DNA from: a bacterium
GTDB lineage: Bacteria; RBG-13-66-14
Length of the DNA: 19,705 bases
Reading direction: 5' to 3'
Assembly: GCA_035528375.1 (NCBI GenBank)
Contig: DATKYS010000083.1
Location: 1 to 19,705, forward strand
In this document: piece by piece, positions 327 through 19,551 of the stretch
Layout: the number at the start of each line of letters is the position of its first letter
How positions within the stretch are numbered: the first letter of the stretch is position 1
Notes under the pieces: model-generated
Databases searched by the model: none
Told to the model about the DNA's origin: nothing
Seen by the model: only the letters and a program-made list of their open reading frames with translations
Made by a program: the position numbers and the translations under genes

Positions 327-863
327 TCAATTTACCGCTTTAACCCTTCTTTTACCAACAAATAAATCATATAGTAATTGCATAGCATTATCCTCATCTA
401 GAAGAACTCTTTTATTATCAATTATCCAATAAGTCTCAAATTTTTCTTCTTTCACATTAATACCGATATAAATACCGTTGTCCAAATATGGTGCTTTTTC
501 TCTTGGTAAATGTATATTATCAGGAATTACTTCAACTTTAGCAGTTGCCCCAACATAACCAATTCCCCCATTTAATTTAAACTTTATACTTTGGTTTTCT
601 AAATTTATTTGCAACTCGTTAATTTGTACTTTTCCTATTTGACTGTTATCAAAATGTTTGTACAATACTATATCCCTTTCCTTCTCAATAGGAACTAAAG
701 GTTTATCACATAAAGCCTTAAAAATGTCATTAATATGCTGAAGAGCCTTTGGTATTAAACCAATGATAATTTTATTGAACTGCTTTTCATTTTCTTGATA
801 CATCTTAGTTTCCTTTTCTATGTCCCTAAGCGCATCAAAAAAATCCTTTTTACCTATTCTCAT
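327..863 (-). CDS. Unrecognised 178-residue protein, second gene of AT-rich island
   Basis: I do not recognise this protein. The first ~55 residues look alpha-helical and charged. Residues ~65-165 alternate polar and hydrophobic residues as beta strands do (for example around KVQINELQINL and IYIGINVKEEKFETYWII), and a short helix closes the protein. It has no signal peptide, membrane segment or familiar catalytic motif. The ATG (863-861) overlaps the TAA of the upstream gene by one base (TAATG), and a strong ribosome binding site (AGGGAGGG) lies a few bases upstream. The two genes are therefore very likely translationally coupled. The DNA is strikingly AT-rich compared with the flanks, indicating recent transfer. 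The gene itself is well supported; its role is unknown. A soluble partner in a two-gene accessory module, such as defence or toxin-antitoxin, is conjecture. Confidence 0.75.
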   Translation of the reverse strand: MRIGKKDFFDALRDIEKETKMYQENEKQFNKIIIGLIPKALQHINDIFKALCDKPLVPIEKERDIVLYKHFDNSQIGKVQINELQINLENQSIKFKLNGGIGYVGATAKVEVIPDNIHLPREKAPYLDNGIYIGINVKEEKFETYWIIDNKRVLLDEDNAMQLLYDLFVGKRRVKAVN

Positions 864-1222
864 TACACCCTCCCTAATGCAGTATACGTGTCGTGGAGTA
901 TCTTCCGTATCTCTTCAGCTTGAGATAACGTTAAGGGCTGCTGCCTTAAATAGGCTAAAGATACTGAAGAAATACCAATTATAGAATATGATTTATAAAG
1001 ACAATCAATAATTGCATCCTTATTATTATTTAACTGATTTATTACTGATGTACTATAACTTGCTCCAATAGATGGATATAAATCGAAGAACTTATTTATT
1101 GTCTCTTGATAAATTGTAGCAATTCTTCTATTATATCTCCTTTTTTCACATTTAAGCGTAACCCACGTATTGATTGTATTTGTACCAATATTCGTGAGTA
1201 GGGTGACCCAAAAGGTATCCAT
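863..1222 (-). CDS. Unrecognised ~119-residue protein, first gene of AT-rich island
   Basis: This is an unrecognised small protein. From the ATG at 1222-1220 it is 119 residues; an in-frame TTG at 1234-1232 would add four. Neither start has a well-spaced ribosome binding site, so the start is uncertain. The N-terminus (residues ~3-22, FWVTLLTNIG...TWVTL) is hydrophobic. It is followed directly by a basic stretch (KCEKRRYNRR), the arrangement expected of a single membrane-associated helix with the rest of the protein in the cytoplasm. The remainder is probably helical. The stop codon overlaps the start of the following gene by one base. A sigma70-type promoter lies just upstream. Composition is AT-rich, unlike the surrounding genes. 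Membrane association is inferred and the function is unknown. Confidence 0.65.
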   Translation of the reverse strand: MDTFWVTLLTNIGTNTINTWVTLKCEKRRYNRRIATIYQETINKFFDLYPSIGASYSTSVINQLNNNKDAIIDCLYKSYSIIGISSVSLAYLRQQPLTLSQAEEIRKILHDTYTALGRV

Positions 1223-1255
1223 ACCCTCTACCAATCATCTATCTATTTCAAGGTC

Positions 1256-11993: not shown

Positions 11994-12476
11994 ATGGATT
12001 TATACCGCGAGCGCCTCACCGACTGGGTGTCCCAGATCATCTTCTGGATCGTCCTGGCGCTCTGCGCGTTCCTCGGCGTCTTCCCGGAGTTGCTGGGGCT
12101 GGGCGCCGTGGTGGAGCGGGTCTTCCCCTGGGTCTTCCTGCCCGTCGCCGGGCTGGTCTTCCTCTTAATCCTCAACTTCCTCTTCATCTCGATCCGGCTG
12201 GACGAAGAGGGCCTCGCCGCCCGCCTGGGCGTATTCAAAACGCGGGCCCGCTGGGACCAGGTGACCGGAGCCGAGATGGACACCCTGCCCGGGTCGGCCT
12301 ACGGCGGCTGGGGAGTCAAGGGGGGGCACATCGGCGGCGAGTATATCCAAGTCTACTCGACCGTCGCCCATCGGCGGGTGGCGGTGAAGCTGACGGGGCA
12401 CAAGTTCGACAGGCTCATCTTCTCGACGAGGAACCCCGAAGAGGTACTTAGGCTGATCAACGGACAGTTAGGGTGA
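11994..12476 (+). CDS. Two-helix membrane protein with PH-like domain
   Basis: This 160-residue protein has two membrane helices (about 13-30 and 44-66) followed by a cytoplasmic beta-rich domain. That domain (~67-158) runs through IRLDEEGLAARLGVFKTRARWDQV, AYGGWGVKGG and a closing helix EEVLRLING. It resembles bacterial PH-like domains attached to membrane helices, with the GGWG turn seen in DUF3093-like proteins. Lipid or protein binding at the membrane is likely; no catalytic residues are visible. The gene starts two bases after subunit F and is clearly within the ATPase transcript, but it is not a known ATPase subunit. It may be an assembly or membrane-environment factor. The family call is a pattern inference. 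Confidence 0.65.
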   Translation: MDLYRERLTDWVSQIIFWIVLALCAFLGVFPELLGLGAVVERVFPWVFLPVAGLVFLLILNFLFISIRLDEEGLAARLGVFKTRARWDQVTGAEMDTLPGSAYGGWGVKGGHIGGEYIQVYSTVAHRRVAVKLTGHKFDRLIFSTRNPEEVLRLINGQLG

Positions 12477-12482
12477 TGGTTT

Positions 12483-13001
12483 ATGCCGCCCTTCGATAAC
12501 CGCTCGCCGTTAAGAATCTTCGTCCACGCGGCCTTCTTCCTCGTGGTCGGCGGTCAGATCGCGCTGGTTTTCATCCTCGAGCCCCACTGGAACGTCTCGT
12601 GGCTGCGATGGGTGGGATACGCCATGTGGGGTTTATCAGTAGTGCTGGGCTGGCTGCCCATCTTCATCTTCCGGCGACGGGGCGGGGTGGAGAAGGGAGA
12701 AAGTTATACCTCCACACAACGTATGGTAACCACCGGTCTCTACGCCGTCGTCCGCCACCCCCAGTTCCTGGCGCTGATCCTGTTGGGCGTGGCTGCGGCG
12801 CTGCTGACTCCACACTGGGCGACCATCGCAGGCGCGGCGGTCATCTCGGTCACCATCTACATCGTCATGTTGTCCTCAGATCGCCGATTGGTGGAGAAGT
12901 TCGGCGACGAGTACCGGGACTACGAGCGCCGGGTCCCCCGGGCCAACATCCTCTGGGGGCTCGTAAAGCTCATCTTCGGCCCCCGACGGCCGGTAAAATA
13001 A
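12483..13001 (+). CDS. Isoprenylcysteine carboxyl methyltransferase-like membrane protein
   Basis: This 172-residue integral membrane protein has about four hydrophobic segments (near 10-32, 41-64, 94-110 and 114-131). It carries the signature of the ICMT/phospholipid-methyltransferase superfamily, TTGLYAVVRHPQF (83-95), and a C-terminal FGDEYRDYERRVP (140-152). These enzymes transfer a methyl group from S-adenosylmethionine to a membrane lipid or lipid-linked target. The glutamate pair usually found just before the C-terminal motif is replaced here by SSD (131-133), so activity is uncertain. The gene is six bases after the PH-like gene and 45 bases before subunit A. The combination suggests a membrane lipid function coupled to the ATPase, but the substrate is unknown. 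The superfamily is likely; the reaction is not proven. Confidence 0.75.
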   Translation: MPPFDNRSPLRIFVHAAFFLVVGGQIALVFILEPHWNVSWLRWVGYAMWGLSVVLGWLPIFIFRRRGGVEKGESYTSTQRMVTTGLYAVVRHPQFLALILLGVAAALLTPHWATIAGAAVISVTIYIVMLSSDRRLVEKFGDEYRDYERRVPRANILWGLVKLIFGPRRPVK

Positions 13002-13046: not shown

Positions 13047-14822
13047 ATGGAGCAGACGGGAACCATCGTCAAGGTCGCCGGCCCCCTGGTGGTGGCCTCC
13101 GGGATGTCCGGCGTGCGGATGTACGACGTCGTCCTGGTCTCGGAAATGAGACTGGTGGGCGAGGTGGTGAAGCTCGACGGAGACCTGGCCAGCATCCAGG
13201 TCTACGAGGAGACGGGCGGAATCGGCCCCGGCGAGCCGGTGTTCACCACGGGCATACCGCTCTCCGTGGAGCTGGGACCTGGACTGATGTCCTCCATCTA
13301 CGACGGCATCCAGCGCCCACTCGCCGTCATCCGTGAAAAGACCGGCGACTTCATCACCCGCGGTGTCCACGCCGACGGCCTGGACCGCGGGCGCAAGTGG
13401 GAGTTCACCCCGAAGTTCAAGGCCGGCGACGAGGTGGTTCCCGGCGACATTCTGGGGGTGTGCCCGGAAACCCCCCTCGTCGAGCACCGCGTGCTGGTCC
13501 CCCCCGGCGTCCGGGGGAAGCTCACGGCCCTGGACTCCGGTTCTTACACCGTGGATGAGCCCATCGGCAAGATCAAAACTCCCGAAGGCGAGGCGGAGCT
13601 CAAGCTGATGCACACCTGGCCGGTGCGGAAATCCCGCCCCTTCGCCCAGCGCCTGACCCCCGAGGAGCCCCTTATCTCGGGACAGCGCGTCATAGACGCC
13701 TTCTTCCCCGTGGGTAAGGGGGGGACCGCCTGCGTCCCCGGGCCATTCGGCTCCGGCAAGACCGTCATCCAGCACCAGCTCGCCAAGTGGGCCAACGCCG
13801 AAATCGTCGTCTACGTTGGCTGCGGCGAACGCGGCAACGAGATGACCGACGTGCTCATGGAGTTCCCCGAGCTCAAGGACCCGCGCTCCGGCGAACCTTT
13901 GATCACCCGCACGGTGATGATAGCCAACACGTCGAACATGCCCGTGGCGGCGCGGGAGGCGTCCATCTACACCGGCATCACCATCGGCGAGTACTACCGC
14001 GATATGGGATACTCCGTGGCCCTCATGGCCGACTCCACCAGCCGGTGGGCCGAGGCGATGCGCGAGATGAGCGGCCGCCTGGAGGAGATGCCCGGCGAGG
14101 AGGGTTATCCCGCGTACCTGGGCACGAAGGTGGCCGAGTTCTACGAGCGGGCCGGACGAACCATCTGCCTCGGCTCCGACGAACGGGAGGCCTCGCTAAC
14201 GGTCATCGGCGCCGTCTCCCCCGCCGGCGGCGACCTCTCCGACCCCGTCGTCCAGGCCACCCTGCGCGTGGTCAAGGTCTTCTGGAGCCTGGAGGACAAG
14301 CTGGCCTACAAGCGCCACTTCCCCGCCATAAGCTGGCTCAACTCCTACAGCCTCTACACCGACAACATCGCCGAATACCTCAAGCGGGAGATGGGCGAGG
14401 ACTGGATACCGATGCGCGACGAGGCGATGGCGTTGTTACAGCGGGAGGCGGAGCTGGAGGAAATCGTACGCCTGGTGGGCATGGAGTCCCTCTCCCCCGG
14501 CGACCGCCTGGTCATGGAGACCAGCCGCTCCATCCGCGAGGATTTCCTGCACCAGAACGCATTCCACCCCGTGGACACCTTTTCCAGCGCCTACAAGCAG
14601 TACCGGATGCTGAAGCTCGTCATGAGCTTCCACCACGCCGCCAAGGCGGCCCTCGAAACGCCGGAGCTGAACCTGGACGCGCTCTTCGCCCTGCCGGTTT
14701 CCGAGGACATCGCCCGCGCCAAGTTCACGCCCGAAGAGGAGGTCGAGGCGAGTTTCGACGGCATCGAGAGCGACATGCAGAAACAGATCGAAGAGCTCAT
14801 CTCCGAAGGACCGGGAACGTAA
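13047..14822 (+). CDS. atpA: V-type ATPase catalytic subunit A
   Basis: This is the 591-residue catalytic subunit that hydrolyses or makes ATP in the A3B3 head. It has the N-terminal beta-barrel (1-75), the A-specific insertion (~115-190), P-loop GPFGSGKT (232-239), catalytic glutamate in GCGERGNE (E261), Walker B ALMADSTSR (D329), and MSGRLEEMPGEEGYPAYLG (341-359). The C-terminal helical domain is complete. All key residues are present, so the protein should be active. Start ATG 13047 follows GGAGA (13032-13036), spaced by about ten bases. The gene lies after two non-ATPase genes and is separated from subunit B by two more. That breaks the usual adjacent A-B order. Confidence 0.97.
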   Translation: MEQTGTIVKVAGPLVVASGMSGVRMYDVVLVSEMRLVGEVVKLDGDLASIQVYEETGGIGPGEPVFTTGIPLSVELGPGLMSSIYDGIQRPLAVIREKTGDFITRGVHADGLDRGRKWEFTPKFKAGDEVVPGDILGVCPETPLVEHRVLVPPGVRGKLTALDSGSYTVDEPIGKIKTPEGEAELKLMHTWPVRKSRPFAQRLTPEEPLISGQRVIDAFFPVGKGGTACVPGPFGSGKTVIQHQLAKWANAEIVVYVGCGERGNEMTDVLMEFPELKDPRSGEPLITRTVMIANTSNMPVAAREASIYTGITIGEYYRDMGYSVALMADSTSRWAEAMREMSGRLEEMPGEEGYPAYLGTKVAEFYERAGRTICLGSDEREASLTVIGAVSPAGGDLSDPVVQATLRVVKVFWSLEDKLAYKRHFPAISWLNSYSLYTDNIAEYLKREMGEDWIPMRDEAMALLQREAELEEIVRLVGMESLSPGDRLVMETSRSIREDFLHQNAFHPVDTFSSAYKQYRMLKLVMSFHHAAKAALETPELNLDALFALPVSEDIARAKFTPEEEVEASFDGIESDMQKQIEELISEGPGT

Positions 14823-14826
14823 TCCC

Positions 14827-15942
14827 ATGTCGAAAACGAAGAGCACTTACCGCATCGTGTTTCTGGCGGCGGTCGCGGCCCTGCCCCTCTTTCTGGCCTG
14901 CGCGGGCCCCGACGACGAGTTCGCCGGCATGACCCCCTGCGCCGAGGTCGCGTACCCCGACACGGCGGGCATCGCGCCGGCCGACGAACCGCTGATAAGT
15001 TTCTACGCGTCGCTGGACCCGGCGAGGCCCCTCGTCCTGCGCGAGGAGGAAGTCTCGACCCACATCGTTCTGCCCGACTGCGACACCCGCAGGATCGCCT
15101 CGACCCGGGCGGAGGTCAGCTACTCCGATGCCGGGAAGGAACCGAGCCTCCGGCTGGCGCTCGACGGCATCGAGGGGGAGGTCAAGCTGGCCGACCTTCC
15201 GCGGGGCGAGAGTTTTTGTGTTAAAAACGACTACCTCGCTCTCCAGGTAGTGCGGGTCGGCAGCCTGGAGATATCGGGGGCCGTCTTCGCGCGTTACCCC
15301 CACAACTCCGTCGCCGTCAAGACGCCCAACCCCGCGAACTGGATCATAGAGGCGGCCCTGACCCCGCCGGAGGAAATGCAACCGACCGAGTCATCCGCGG
15401 TTGAGGGAGAGGCCAACGATTTCGGCACCGGCACGCCTGACCTGGCCAACCTGGAGCGCTTCTTCCTCGTCCTGCAGGGGGGTGTGGCCAACAACACCCA
15501 GCTCACCATCCAGGGCCAGTACACGGGCGACCAGTCGGTAACCTCGGGTCAGATGTTCTTCTCACCGGCGCCCGCCACCCCCGCCGAGGCGGAGGAAATA
15601 AAAAGCTCCACCGAAGAGCGCATCCGCGATCTCTACCTGAACGCCCCGGGGTGGAAGGTGGCCGAACGGCTGACGGTGGAGACGCTGGACTGGAACGAGC
15701 CCTACTTCTCGGACCTGGTCAACTGGTCGGGAACGGAGGTGGACGTCCGGCTGACCTGGAGTGACCCCGCCTCGGGCACGGTCCTGTACCAGACCGTGGA
15801 CACCATCGGCCTGGTGCGCTGGACCGACTTTCTCTGGTACGTGGACGTGGACCACATCCTGCGCCGGGAGCAGCCGGTTGGAGAGAACAGGCTCTGGACC
15901 GGCTGCCCGACGCCGAAAAACATCGCAGAAGATACGGAGTAA
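14827..15942 (+). CDS. Probable lipoprotein of unknown function
   Basis: This 371-residue protein begins with a signal sequence. Residues 1-24 have basic residues, then a hydrophobic core and PLFLA before C25, so it is probably lipidated at C25 after signal peptidase II cleavage. The lipobox is imperfect, with Phe at -3. The +2 residue is Ala, compatible with outer-membrane sorting. The mature part is beta-rich without a family I recognise. It contains four further cysteines (in TPCAEV, PDCDT, SFCVKN and GCPTPK) that could form disulfides. It starts four bases after subunit A's stop and ends nine bases before the cyclase-TPR gene, so it is co-transcribed with the ATPase. No known V-ATPase subunit is a lipoprotein. 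The role is unknown; sensing or envelope stabilisation would be speculation. Confidence 0.7.
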   Translation: MSKTKSTYRIVFLAAVAALPLFLACAGPDDEFAGMTPCAEVAYPDTAGIAPADEPLISFYASLDPARPLVLREEEVSTHIVLPDCDTRRIASTRAEVSYSDAGKEPSLRLALDGIEGEVKLADLPRGESFCVKNDYLALQVVRVGSLEISGAVFARYPHNSVAVKTPNPANWIIEAALTPPEEMQPTESSAVEGEANDFGTGTPDLANLERFFLVLQGGVANNTQLTIQGQYTGDQSVTSGQMFFSPAPATPAEAEEIKSSTEERIRDLYLNAPGWKVAERLTVETLDWNEPYFSDLVNWSGTEVDVRLTWSDPASGTVLYQTVDTIGLVRWTDFLWYVDVDHILRREQPVGENRLWTGCPTPKNIAEDTE

Positions 15943-15951
15943 CCGTAAGAG

Positions 15952-17220
15952 ATGGGCAAATCACCCGACTACTACCCCATCGTTTTCACCGACCTCGTGG
16001 CCAGCAAATTGGCGATGAGTTATCTACCGGAATACATGGTCAATGAATTTCTCCGTGAACACAGCCGCGTTGTCCTGGATACCGCCAGGCGCACGTGCGG
16101 AATGGACGAACTGCCCTTCAAACCCACAAATTTAGGTGACGGTAACCTTTTCATATTCAATAACATGGATGAATCAATCATATTCTCCATTTGTATAATG
16201 AGCAGCTGGAAACGTTACTGGGACGAAACCGTATCTACGTGCCTCCTCGACTATCCAAAAATCGCCGAGCGCGGTTGCGTCCTGATGATGCGTATCGGGA
16301 TACATTACGGCTTGATCTACCACGAGGACATCCAGGACTTCTCCACCCAGGTCAATCTCGGCAACGCCATCAATACAACTTTCGTCCTCCAAGGCCAGGC
16401 CTCCCCCGGTGAGGTGACCATCACCGAAACCGCCGCCTCACTCACCGCCAGCTCTCTGTTCAACATCCGTTACCGAGGGCGTTTCGACCCACTCAACCGA
16501 TCGGAGGACGTTTCGGAGGAGGAGCGGCTCTCCTTCTACGAGGTCACCGGCATGATCAAGCCACCCAGATACAGCTCCATCGCGAATCGCCTTCCACCCG
16601 TCAAGCGCGATAGGATCGCCTTGGATTGGTACTGGCGGGGTTTCTACCAAGGCAATGACCCGACTACAATCAACGAGGCTATCAACTCGTACGAACAGGC
16701 GACCCTGTTCAACCCCAGATTGGCCAACGCGTGGGCCAACATGGGCGTTCATCTGTCCGACAGCGGAAAGTACGACACAGCAAAAAAAATATTGGAAAAA
16801 GCGCTGGAGATGGAACCGACCAACGTCAACATCCTCTGTAACCTCGGGTCGGTTTTTCAGAAAATAGGCGAGCCGGAAGAGGCGAAGAAACGGTGTGAAA
16901 AAGCACTGGAGCTGGACGAAACTTCCGAGTACGCCCATTACAATCTCGGAACGGTATATCTCGACATGCACGAACTGAAGTCCGCAGAGAAACGTTTTCA
17001 ACAAGCGATAGAGCTAAATCCCCTTTTTTATCAAGCACTGTACAACCTCGGCTGTGTTCATACCCTCCAAGAACGACCAGAAAAGGCATTGGAGTATCTC
17101 TCGCGCGCCTTTCAAGTATACCCTCAGTATATGAAGATCGCCCGCAAGGATGAGGACCTGAAGTCCCTCTGGACCGATAAACGCTTTCTCAATCTGGTAG
17201 GCGGTACCAACGTTGATTAA
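15952..17220 (+). CDS. Degenerate class III nucleotide cyclase domain fused to TPR repeats
   Basis: Residues ~8-170 follow the class III adenylate/guanylate cyclase fold: FTDLV with metal-binding D14, LGDGNLFIF with D63, MRIGIHYG (113-120), and [21 protein letters not shown] (133-153). Both metal aspartates and N141 are present. The transition-state arginine expected four residues after that asparagine is V145, and helix pairing is unusual, so cyclase activity may be lost or altered. Residues ~222-391 are five TPR repeats, a protein-docking surface. There is no membrane segment. The gene sits between subunits A and B and could report or adjust ATPase state. Its composition is less GC-rich (for example 25 of 60 bases in one line) than A and B, so it may be a later insertion. 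The architecture is clear; the activity is open. Confidence 0.8.
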
Positions 17221-17270: not shown

Positions 17271-18692
17271 ATGGGAGAAAAGGAAAAAGTCGCGGTGCAG
17301 CCGCTCAAGGAGTACCTCTCCACCCAGGAGATAGCCGGCCCGCTGATGCTCGTCGAGGGGGTCGAGGGGGTCAAGTACGAGGAGCTGGCCGAGATCGAGC
17401 TCCCCACGGGCGAAATCCGCCGGGGGCGCGTCCTCGAGGTGCACAAAGACAAAGCCCTGCTGCAGCTCTTCGAAGGCGCGACGGGGATAGACATCCCCTC
17501 CTCCCGGGTCCGCTTCCTGGGCCGGGGGGTCGAGCTGGGGGTGTCCCGGGAGATGCTCGGGCGGGTTTTCGACGGCCAGGGGAGGCCCATTGACGACGGA
17601 CCCGAGATCATCCCCGAGGAGCGGCGCGACATCAACGGCTCCCCCATCAACCCCTACGCCCGCGATTACCCCAACGAGTTCATCCAGACCGGCATAAGCT
17701 GCATAGACGGGCTGAACACCCTTGTCCGCGGCCAGAAGCTGCCGATATTCTCCGGCTCGGGGCTGCCGCACCAGCAGATGGCGGCGCAGATCGCACGCCA
17801 GGCCAACGTGCTCCAGTCGGGCGAGGGGTTCAGCGTCGTCTTCGCGGCCATGGGCATCACCTTCGAGGAGGCCCGGTATTTCATTGACGACTTCCGGCGC
17901 ACCGGGGCCATAGACCGCGCGGTGCTCTTCATGAACCTGGCCGACGACCCGGCCATCGAGCGCATCTCCACCCCGCGCATGGCCCTGACCGCCGCCGAGT
18001 ACCTCGCCTACGAGATGGACATGCACGTGCTGGTCATCCTCACCGACATGACAAATTACTGCGAGGCGCTGCGCGAGATTTCCGCGGCCCGGAAGGAGAT
18101 TCCCGGCCGGCGCGGGTACCCCGGCTACCTCTACACCGACCTCTCCAGCGTCTACGAGCGCGCGGGGCGCATCAAGGACCGACGCGGCTCCATAACCCAG
18201 ATTCCCATCCTCACCATGCCCGAGGATGACAAGACGCACCCCATCGCCGACCTCACCGGCTACATCACCGAGGGGCAGATAATCCTCTCCCGCGCCATGC
18301 ACAAGAAGGGTATCTACCCGCCGGTGGACGTGATGCAGTCGCTTTCCAGGTTGAAGGACAAGGGCATCGGCGAGGGGAAGACGCGCAAGGACCACGCCGA
18401 TGTCTTCAACCAGCTCTTCTCCGGTTACGCCCGGGGCAAGGAGGCCCAGGAGCTGGCGGTGATTCTGGGCGAGGCGGCGCTCTCGGACATGGACAGGGTC
18501 TTCTTCAAATTCGCCGACGAGTTCGAGCATCGCTACATCGCCCAGGGGGACCACGAGAACCGCGGGGTGTTCGAAACGCTGGACCTCGGCTGGCGCCTTT
18601 TAGCTGCTCTGCCCAGGGCGGAGCTCAAGCGCATCCGGCCGGAGTACCTGGATGAGTTCCTGCCGAAGTTCTTGAAAACACTGGAGGATTAA
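17271..18692 (+). CDS. atpB: V-type ATPase non-catalytic subunit B
   Basis: This 473-residue protein alternates with A in the catalytic head. Nucleotide-binding features are the degenerate P-loop SGSGLPHQ (161-168), lacking the catalytic lysine, as is normal for subunit [32 protein letters not shown] and the Arg-rich C-terminal [10 protein letters not shown] are family hallmarks. Length and motifs are complete. Start ATG 17271 follows the duplicated AGGA sites. The usual next gene, subunit D, is not present. Instead the DNA becomes AT-rich 14 bases after the stop and carries an unrelated promoter. No terminator hairpin is visible, so read-through into the insert is possible. Confidence 0.97.
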
Positions 18693-18705: not shown

Positions 18706-18734
18706 TTGACAAAAAAGGAAAAAGCGGCTAAACT
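18706..18734 (+). promoter_or_regulatory. Consensus sigma70 promoter of the DUF3800 gene
   Basis: TTGACA (18706-18711), a 17-base spacer and TAAACT (18729-18734) form a near-consensus promoter 14 bases after the subunit B stop. The transcript would start near 18741 with a leader of about 70 bases. It makes the downstream insert independent of the ATPase operon. Confidence 0.75.
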
Positions 18735-18803
18735 TCATTGCGCGGTTGGGAGGGCTGCATATAGCGGTCCGTTAGGAGTTAATCCTACCTGGCTGCATTT
18801 TTT

Positions 18804-18813: not shown

Positions 18814-19551
18814 ATGTATTTACTGTACTTAGACGATTCGGGCTCTGCAGGAAATAGGACAGAACAACATCTCGTCCTTGGTGGTGTATCTATCTTTGAA
18901 CGGCAGGTTCACTGGATATCCGAGGAAATGAACCGGCTAGCTGAGCAAATATCACCTATTTCTCCTGAACAAACTGAATTCCATGCTTACGACATTTTTT
19001 CAGGTAAAGAAGCTCCCTGGAAAGGTATGCCTAGACAAGAAAGAATTAATACAATTAAGGAAACATTGAATATCCTAGCCAATTCTAATATCACAACCCA
19101 AGCATTTGCATGTATTGTAGATAAAGAATCATTTCCAAAGCATGACCCCATGGAACTCGCTTTTGAGAATATATGTAATAGATTTGACCTCTTACTTAAA
19201 GCACAACACCATCAAGGTAATACACAACGTGGTATTATTATCCTTGATAGAAGTTCATACGAAACAAGTCTGCAATATTTAGCACGTGATTTTAGAACGC
19301 TAGGCACTAAATGGGGAATCACTGTTAATATCAATGAAGTACCTTTATTTGTTGATTCAAAATTATCCCGCTTAATTCAACTTGCAGATCACGTGGCCTA
19401 CTCTGTGTATAGAAGATACGAACGCGGTGATACACAATATTTAGATATTATATTAAATCGCTTCGGTCTTGAAGATGGAAAGCTTCATAATCTTGTCCAT
19501 AAGACTCATAAATCAAGTTGTATGTGCCCTGCATGTTTAAGCCGTAAGTAA
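18814..19551 (+). CDS. DUF3800 family protein
   Basis: From ATG 18814 the protein has 245 residues. It opens with YLDDSGSAG (5-13), the hallmark of DUF3800, and continues with EFHAYDIFSG (55-64), IIILDRSSYE (141-150) and IQLADHVAYSVYR (188-200). The conserved acidic residues (D7, D8, D60, D145, D192) resemble those of metal-dependent nucleases, but the family's reaction is not established to my knowledge. DUF3800 genes often lie in accessory or defence-rich regions. A Cys/His-rich tail (HKTHKSSCMCPAC, 229-241) could bind zinc. The DNA is AT-rich (18 of 60 bases G/C in one line), unlike the ATPase genes, so it was probably acquired. The family call is from the motif pattern; the function is open. 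Confidence 0.8.
   Translation: MYLLYLDDSGSAGNRTEQHLVLGGVSIFERQVHWISEEMNRLAEQISPISPEQTEFHAYDIFSGKEAPWKGMPRQERINTIKETLNILANSNITTQAFACIVDKESFPKHDPMELAFENICNRFDLLLKAQHHQGNTQRGIIILDRSSYETSLQYLARDFRTLGTKWGITVNINEVPLFVDSKLSRLIQLADHVAYSVYRRYERGDTQYLDIILNRFGLEDGKLHNLVHKTHKSSCMCPACLSRK

Follow-up and report, generated by a model that had tools for sequence, protein, structure and literature searches.

Between the genes for the head subunits A and B of a bacterial V/A-type ATPase lies a gene for a protein that combines a class III cyclase-like domain with TPRs. This raises the question whether the product serves the ATPase or is only encoded with it. The initial annotation, made from the DNA alone, had suggested a recruited nucleotide sensor or regulator of the ATPase and knew of no described system with this arrangement. 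We also found none, and none of the papers searched names both Coatesbacteria and V-type ATP synthase or ATPase.

Operon and domain layout

The window, i.e. the whole stretch of DNA that was analysed (19,705 nucleotides), belongs to a 2.63-Mb assembly (G000) of an organism that shares its genus with Candidatus Coatesbacteria bacterium RBG_13_66_14 (G002, contig L069). The first part of the V/A-type ATPase operon encodes the subunits H (7208), I (7538), K (9585), E (10075), C (10654) and F (11665). It continues with a PH-like membrane protein (11994), an ICMT-like methyltransferase (12483), subunit A, a lipoprotein, the cyclase-TPR protein and subunit B, and subunit D is encoded elsewhere in the genome (C48 of G000). 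The cyclase-TPR gene is an intact ORF with an ATG start. It is on the same strand as the neighbouring lipoprotein gene and atpB, from which it is separated by 9 nt and 50 nt, respectively. The position between A and B was therefore described correctly, with the addition that the lipoprotein gene also sits between atpA and the cyclase-TPR gene. The features used below are the following.

13047-14822, plus strand: V/A-type ATPase subunit A (atpA); Pfam ATP-synt_ab 3.7e-72, VA-specific C-terminal domain
14827-15942, plus strand: predicted lipoprotein; lipobox-like FLAC close to the N-terminus; adjoins atpA/atpB in relatives too
15952-17220, plus strand: cyclase-TPR protein, 422 aa; ORF, domain, alignment and structure evidence
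15952-16554, plus strand: predicted class III cyclase-fold domain, residues 1-201
15991-15993, plus strand: D14, first metal aspartate (VFTDL), invariant in 7/7
16126-16128, plus strand: T59, canonical substrate-lysine position, Thr or Ile across the family
16138-16140, plus strand: D63, second metal aspartate (LGDGNL), invariant in 7/7
16363-16365, plus strand: N138, canonical adenine-specifying aspartate position, unconserved (N,R,E,R,R,R,S)
16372-16374, plus strand: N141, canonical transition-state asparagine, invariant in 7/7
16384-16386, plus strand: V145, canonical transition-state arginine position, Val in 7/7
16597-16710, plus strand: degenerate first TPR-like helix pair, residues 216-253; AlphaFold helices
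16723-17118, plus strand: four TPRs, residues 258-389; TPR_1 5.4e-32, helix pairs in the AlphaFold model
17271-18692, plus strand: V/A-type ATPase subunit B (atpB); Pfam ATP-synt_ab 3.8e-80, VA-specific C-terminal domain

The lipoprotein is common to all seven genomes of the family. It has no match in Pfam or NCBIfam, and its AlphaFold model (pLDDT 49) is uninformative. For the C-terminal part of the cyclase-TPR protein five TPRs had been proposed; four of these helix pairs pass Pfam, whereas the fifth, at residues 216-253, is degenerate and without a strong TPR match of its own. Membership of the protein in a defence system was considered and rejected, as PADLOC returned just a generic TPR match.

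The genes for the PH-like membrane protein and the ICMT-type methyltransferase (11994-13001, plus strand, between subunits F and A) are both kept in G006 (33% and 65% identity), where a radical-SAM-like gene is added in the F-A region, and the contigs of G004 and G005, both partial, show one or the other. At the left end of the window two ORFs of low GC (327-1234, minus strand, GC about 0.3) were found; they gave no match with PADLOC and are probably a recent acquisition.

The divergent cyclase site

The Pfam match of the N-terminal domain to Guanylate_cyc is borderline (residues 109-178; 22.5 bits vs a cut-off of 21.9). In an AlphaFold model calculated with the seven-member family alignment as input (pLDDT 88.2), residues 5-199 can be superposed on the cyclase Ma1120 (5d0h; Z 20.9, 160 residues aligned at 2.1 A). 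Many further class III cyclases, active ones included, also match the predicted domain. Judged by this model, the protein belongs to the class III nucleotidyl cyclase fold superfamily. The alignment comprises the window protein and six homologs (n=7) that are 36-53% identical to it, and the six canonical positions were mapped by eye against the canonical cyclases of the window genome together with this alignment. Both metal-binding aspartates expected of a class III enzyme, D14 and D63, are present, in agreement with the initial annotation, and the arginine described there as missing is also replaced by valine in all homologs. The two residues that canonically specify the substrate (Lys/Asp for ATP; Glu plus a partner for GTP) are absent from the family, and the transition-state Asn-Arg pair is incomplete, with Asn kept and Arg exchanged for Val. 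Thus three of the six canonical residues (Lys, Asp and Arg) are gone family-wide. Since D14, D63 and N141 are invariant at 36-53% identity while the other canonical residues were lost, the metal site is under strong constraint. The family also has motifs of its own that are nearly or fully invariant, one beginning DLxx and the other GRFD.

From the missing arginine a sensor instead of an enzyme had been deduced. This conclusion is not established, as shown by XC_0250 from Xanthomonas campestris, in which Leu and Ala replace Asn and Arg and which is reported to be an active guanylyl cyclase that makes cGMP in vitro; its activity is abolished by changing the metal aspartates (PMC3770947). By layout and residues XC_0250 resembles the window protein: TPRs follow an N-terminal class III cyclase domain in which both metal aspartates are kept (PMC3770947). 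It differs in the additional loss of Asn, in its size (886 aa), in the reported in vitro activity and in its linked gene, which encodes a cNMP-binding GGDEF protein, whereas the neighbours of the window protein are the lipoprotein, atpA and atpB. The mycobacterial adenylyl cyclases Ma1120 and Rv1900c share the predicted fold (Z 20.9 and 20.3) and demonstrate that the canonical Asn is not universal and that its loss is tolerated (PMC4215837, PMC4886424). Unlike the window protein they retain Arg, their solved domains have no TPRs, and the identity is about 20%. The DUF2652 proteins (PMC4886424) are likewise cytosolic class III-like domains with conserved metal aspartates and other residues altered, but they occur in other phyla and keep substrate-specifying residues and an Arg or another stabilising residue; TPRs are unmentioned in PMC4886424. 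What is known is therefore the cyclase-TPR layout with a degenerate site (XC_0250), and what is new is a clade-restricted cyclase-TPR variant with family-wide loss of Arg. As a small and clean natural family that keeps an invariant metal site and has lost Arg and both substrate-specifying residues, it makes testable, together with XC_0250, the question of what a class III domain without Arg can do.

In light of these comparisons the protein could be an active non-canonical nucleotidyl cyclase that produces cGMP, cAMP or another product under control of the TPRs and signals through the cNMP-binding proteins of the genome. We regard this as possible, and the case for it as tentative. The retained Asn and metal aspartates, the activity of XC_0250, the tolerance of Rv1900c and Ma1120 to loss of Asn (PMC4886424, PMC4215837) and eight cNMP-binding matches in the window genome point in this direction. 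On the other side, Arg and both substrate-specifying positions are gone in all seven proteins, and the genome already encodes cyclase domains in four further genes, of which three are strong matches.

A further reading assumes a C1-like half, which would give its metal aspartates to a heterodimeric cyclase while Lys, Asp, Asn and Arg would come from the other half. The residue pattern does resemble the metal-binding half of two-domain cyclases, and one protein of the window genome is split in the same way: L105 2691-6350 (G000 C93) encodes a protein of 1220 aa in which a tandem pair of cyclase domains is combined with an ATPase module and helical repeats, resembling soluble adenylyl cyclase (sAC) in layout; its first cyclase domain carries the metal aspartates and its second D, N and R. 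However, this protein already contains both halves, no free C2-like partner was seen, and the cyclase-TPR protein retains Asn, which belongs to the other half. Of all readings we consider this one the least probable.

The slot before atpB in relatives

A search with the N-terminal domain as query identified six strong copies in four other genomes of the same Candidatus Coatesbacteria family. No relative covering the domain was found outside the family among 386 genomes, only weak partial matches. A pattern scan of GTDB contigs recovered four relatives, all from family genomes already known, and no relative covering the domain turned up in viral contigs. By these sequence comparisons the cyclase-TPR proteins are a real family that is confined to one Candidatus Coatesbacteria family. 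In other families of the phylum the V-type B subunit gave just distant matches, at about 30% identity, which we take to be F-type subunits.

The order lipoprotein, cyclase-TPR gene, atpB is kept in five genomes from four genera (G000, G002, G004, G005 and G006), so that the linkage to the ATPase genes, which the initial annotation had proposed to survey, is conserved. In G005 an extra small membrane protein (L017 7876-8235, minus strand) is encoded between the cyclase-TPR gene and atpB. Within the genus of the window (G000-G003) the slot before atpB occurs in four different states. G000 has the intact window copy. According to the draft metagenome-assembled genomes, G002 has a copy 50% identical to the window copy with an in-frame TAG, in G001 an N6/N4 DNA methyltransferase gene replaces the cyclase-TPR gene, and in G003 all that is left in the slot is EDERFIDLVGENSSD*, a remnant of 15 codons from the 3' end of the gene that stops 38 nt before atpB. 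Against the family C-terminal profile this remnant scores 22.9 (true members 17-26), a value reached by none of 1500 shuffles (maximum 14) and none of 276 other segments. The flanking lipoprotein and atpB genes align cleanly up to the edges of the slot. From the four slot states, the G003 remnant and the clean flanks we conclude that the gene was most likely present in the ancestor of the genus and later underwent deletion, replacement or possibly disruption.

If the gene were decaying and already without function, its loss, replacement or interruption in three of the four congeners and its very fast divergence would be explained. Against this, the window ORF is intact and contains every family-invariant residue, three other genera have intact copies, and the GC3 pattern is typical of a coding gene; decay is therefore very unlikely in our view.

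The same data bear on the proposed link with the ATPase. An obligate component or regulator should be present wherever the V-ATPase operon of the family is present, but the gene is absent from G001 and G003, in which the A-lipoprotein-B stretches are contiguous across the slot. In addition, G004 and G006 contain extra stand-alone copies that are unlinked to ATPase genes. As close relatives have lost or swapped the gene, the protein looks dispensable to the ATPase and not like a core regulator of it. The conservation of the slot in four genera is more than would be expected from random insertion and could reflect a functional tie to the ATPase.

A dedicated sensor that regulates assembly or activity of the V-ATPase, with the pseudo-cyclase binding ATP or another nucleotide and the TPRs gripping A, B or another subunit, is unlikely. 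The single slot in five genomes of four genera, the common strand and the tight spacing in the window argue for it, as does the invariant metal site with lost catalytic residues, and there is an animal precedent in which cAMP from sAC activates PKA, which regulates the V-ATPase (PMC8294626). sAC (ADCY10) and the bacterial proteins with two cyclase domains, an ATPase module and repeats also link a cyclase to helical repeats; the sAC layout consists of two tandem cyclase domains and an ATPase module, whereas in the window protein a single cyclase domain is followed by nothing but TPRs. These points stand against ATPase operons kept without the gene, the unlinked copies and the finding that the gene has changed at a much higher rate than A, B and the lipoprotein, with a history independent of theirs. 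The regulator role suggested in the initial annotation is hence unsupported. A narrower version, in which a clade-specific pseudo-cyclase senses nucleotide, controls the V/A-ATPase through contacts of the TPRs with the head and was lost where this regulation was unneeded, seems slightly less probable still.

Base rate, composition and the preferred reading

How much weight the location can carry was estimated from the distance between A and B in 119 pairs outside the family. This distance had a median of 40 nt and was at least 1 kb in 11 of the 119 pairs, so that an insert between A and B is uncommon elsewhere, and its uniqueness was rejected. The occupants scanned in these 11 long gaps included MNT/HepT toxin-antitoxin, Schlafen-like, RAMA and NYN genes and two TPR proteins, and were mutually unrelated. 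Because the A-B junction takes accessory genes, a location there says little about function. In bacterial V-ATPase operons accessory and mobile genes are admitted between atpA and atpB, and position alone should not be read as function.

The low GC had been taken as a sign of recruitment to the operon. For the window copy a GC lower than that of A and B is correct (GC3 0.66 vs 0.87-0.90 for the neighbours), but GC3 is ordinary in the majority of the slot homologs (0.85-0.88 in G002, G004 and G006; 0.70 in G005). The low GC is consequently a property of the window allele and not the mark of a foreign gene, and as proof of recruitment it was rejected. The codon use of the window copy has the lowest score and is the most atypical in the operon. 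With the caveat that this copy was flagged for deviant composition, which may mislead both tree and dS, dS between G000 and G002 is 2.15 for the cyclase-TPR gene vs 0.30 for the lipoprotein and 0.23 for atpB, and the protein tree joins the window copy with G005 (96/95) and not with its congener G002 (AU test p 0.04 against a G000+G002 clade). In the atpB and lipoprotein trees G000 groups with G001 and G002. Between G004 and G006 the dS of the cyclase-TPR gene and of the lipoprotein is the same (0.71), matching the expectation of vertical descent. The simplest reading is an allele swap, in which the window allele arrived by recombination from a relative of lower GC.

Taken together, we lean towards an accessory signalling protein of one Candidatus Coatesbacteria family, with a putative metal-NTP-binding divergent class III cyclase domain and TPRs for docking, which would be co-transcribed with the ATPase through a permissive slot and be neither a subunit nor an obligate regulator. 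In such a protein the divergent cyclase-type site would bind metal-NTP, and the TPR solenoid would dock it to a partner. Co-transcription with the V-ATPase would follow from the permissive slot just before atpB. The product may be a cyclic nucleotide, as reported for the similarly degenerate XC_0250, or there may be none, in which case the protein would act as a binding-only switch. Parts of a cyclic-nucleotide network are available to it because of the other cyclase and cNMP-binding genes of the genome.

Mobile or defence-type genes collect on both sides of atpB. Just after atpB, G001, G002 and G003 encode a nucleotidyltransferase with a HEPN-like partner on the opposite strand (L016 6013-7060, L042 6491-7577 and L046 3309-4308); the nucleotidyltransferase of G002 is assigned to PDC-M05A by PADLOC. 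At this place the window has a DUF3800 gene of about 38% GC, which looks like a recent acquisition. A DUF3800-VI RNA motif (RF02915, 66.5 bits) at 18743-18795 (plus strand) lies just within the called DUF3800 ORF, and a promoter-like site (TTGACA-N17-TAAACT) is located upstream of the motif at 18706. The ATG at 18814 is more likely the start of this gene than the TTG at 18706.
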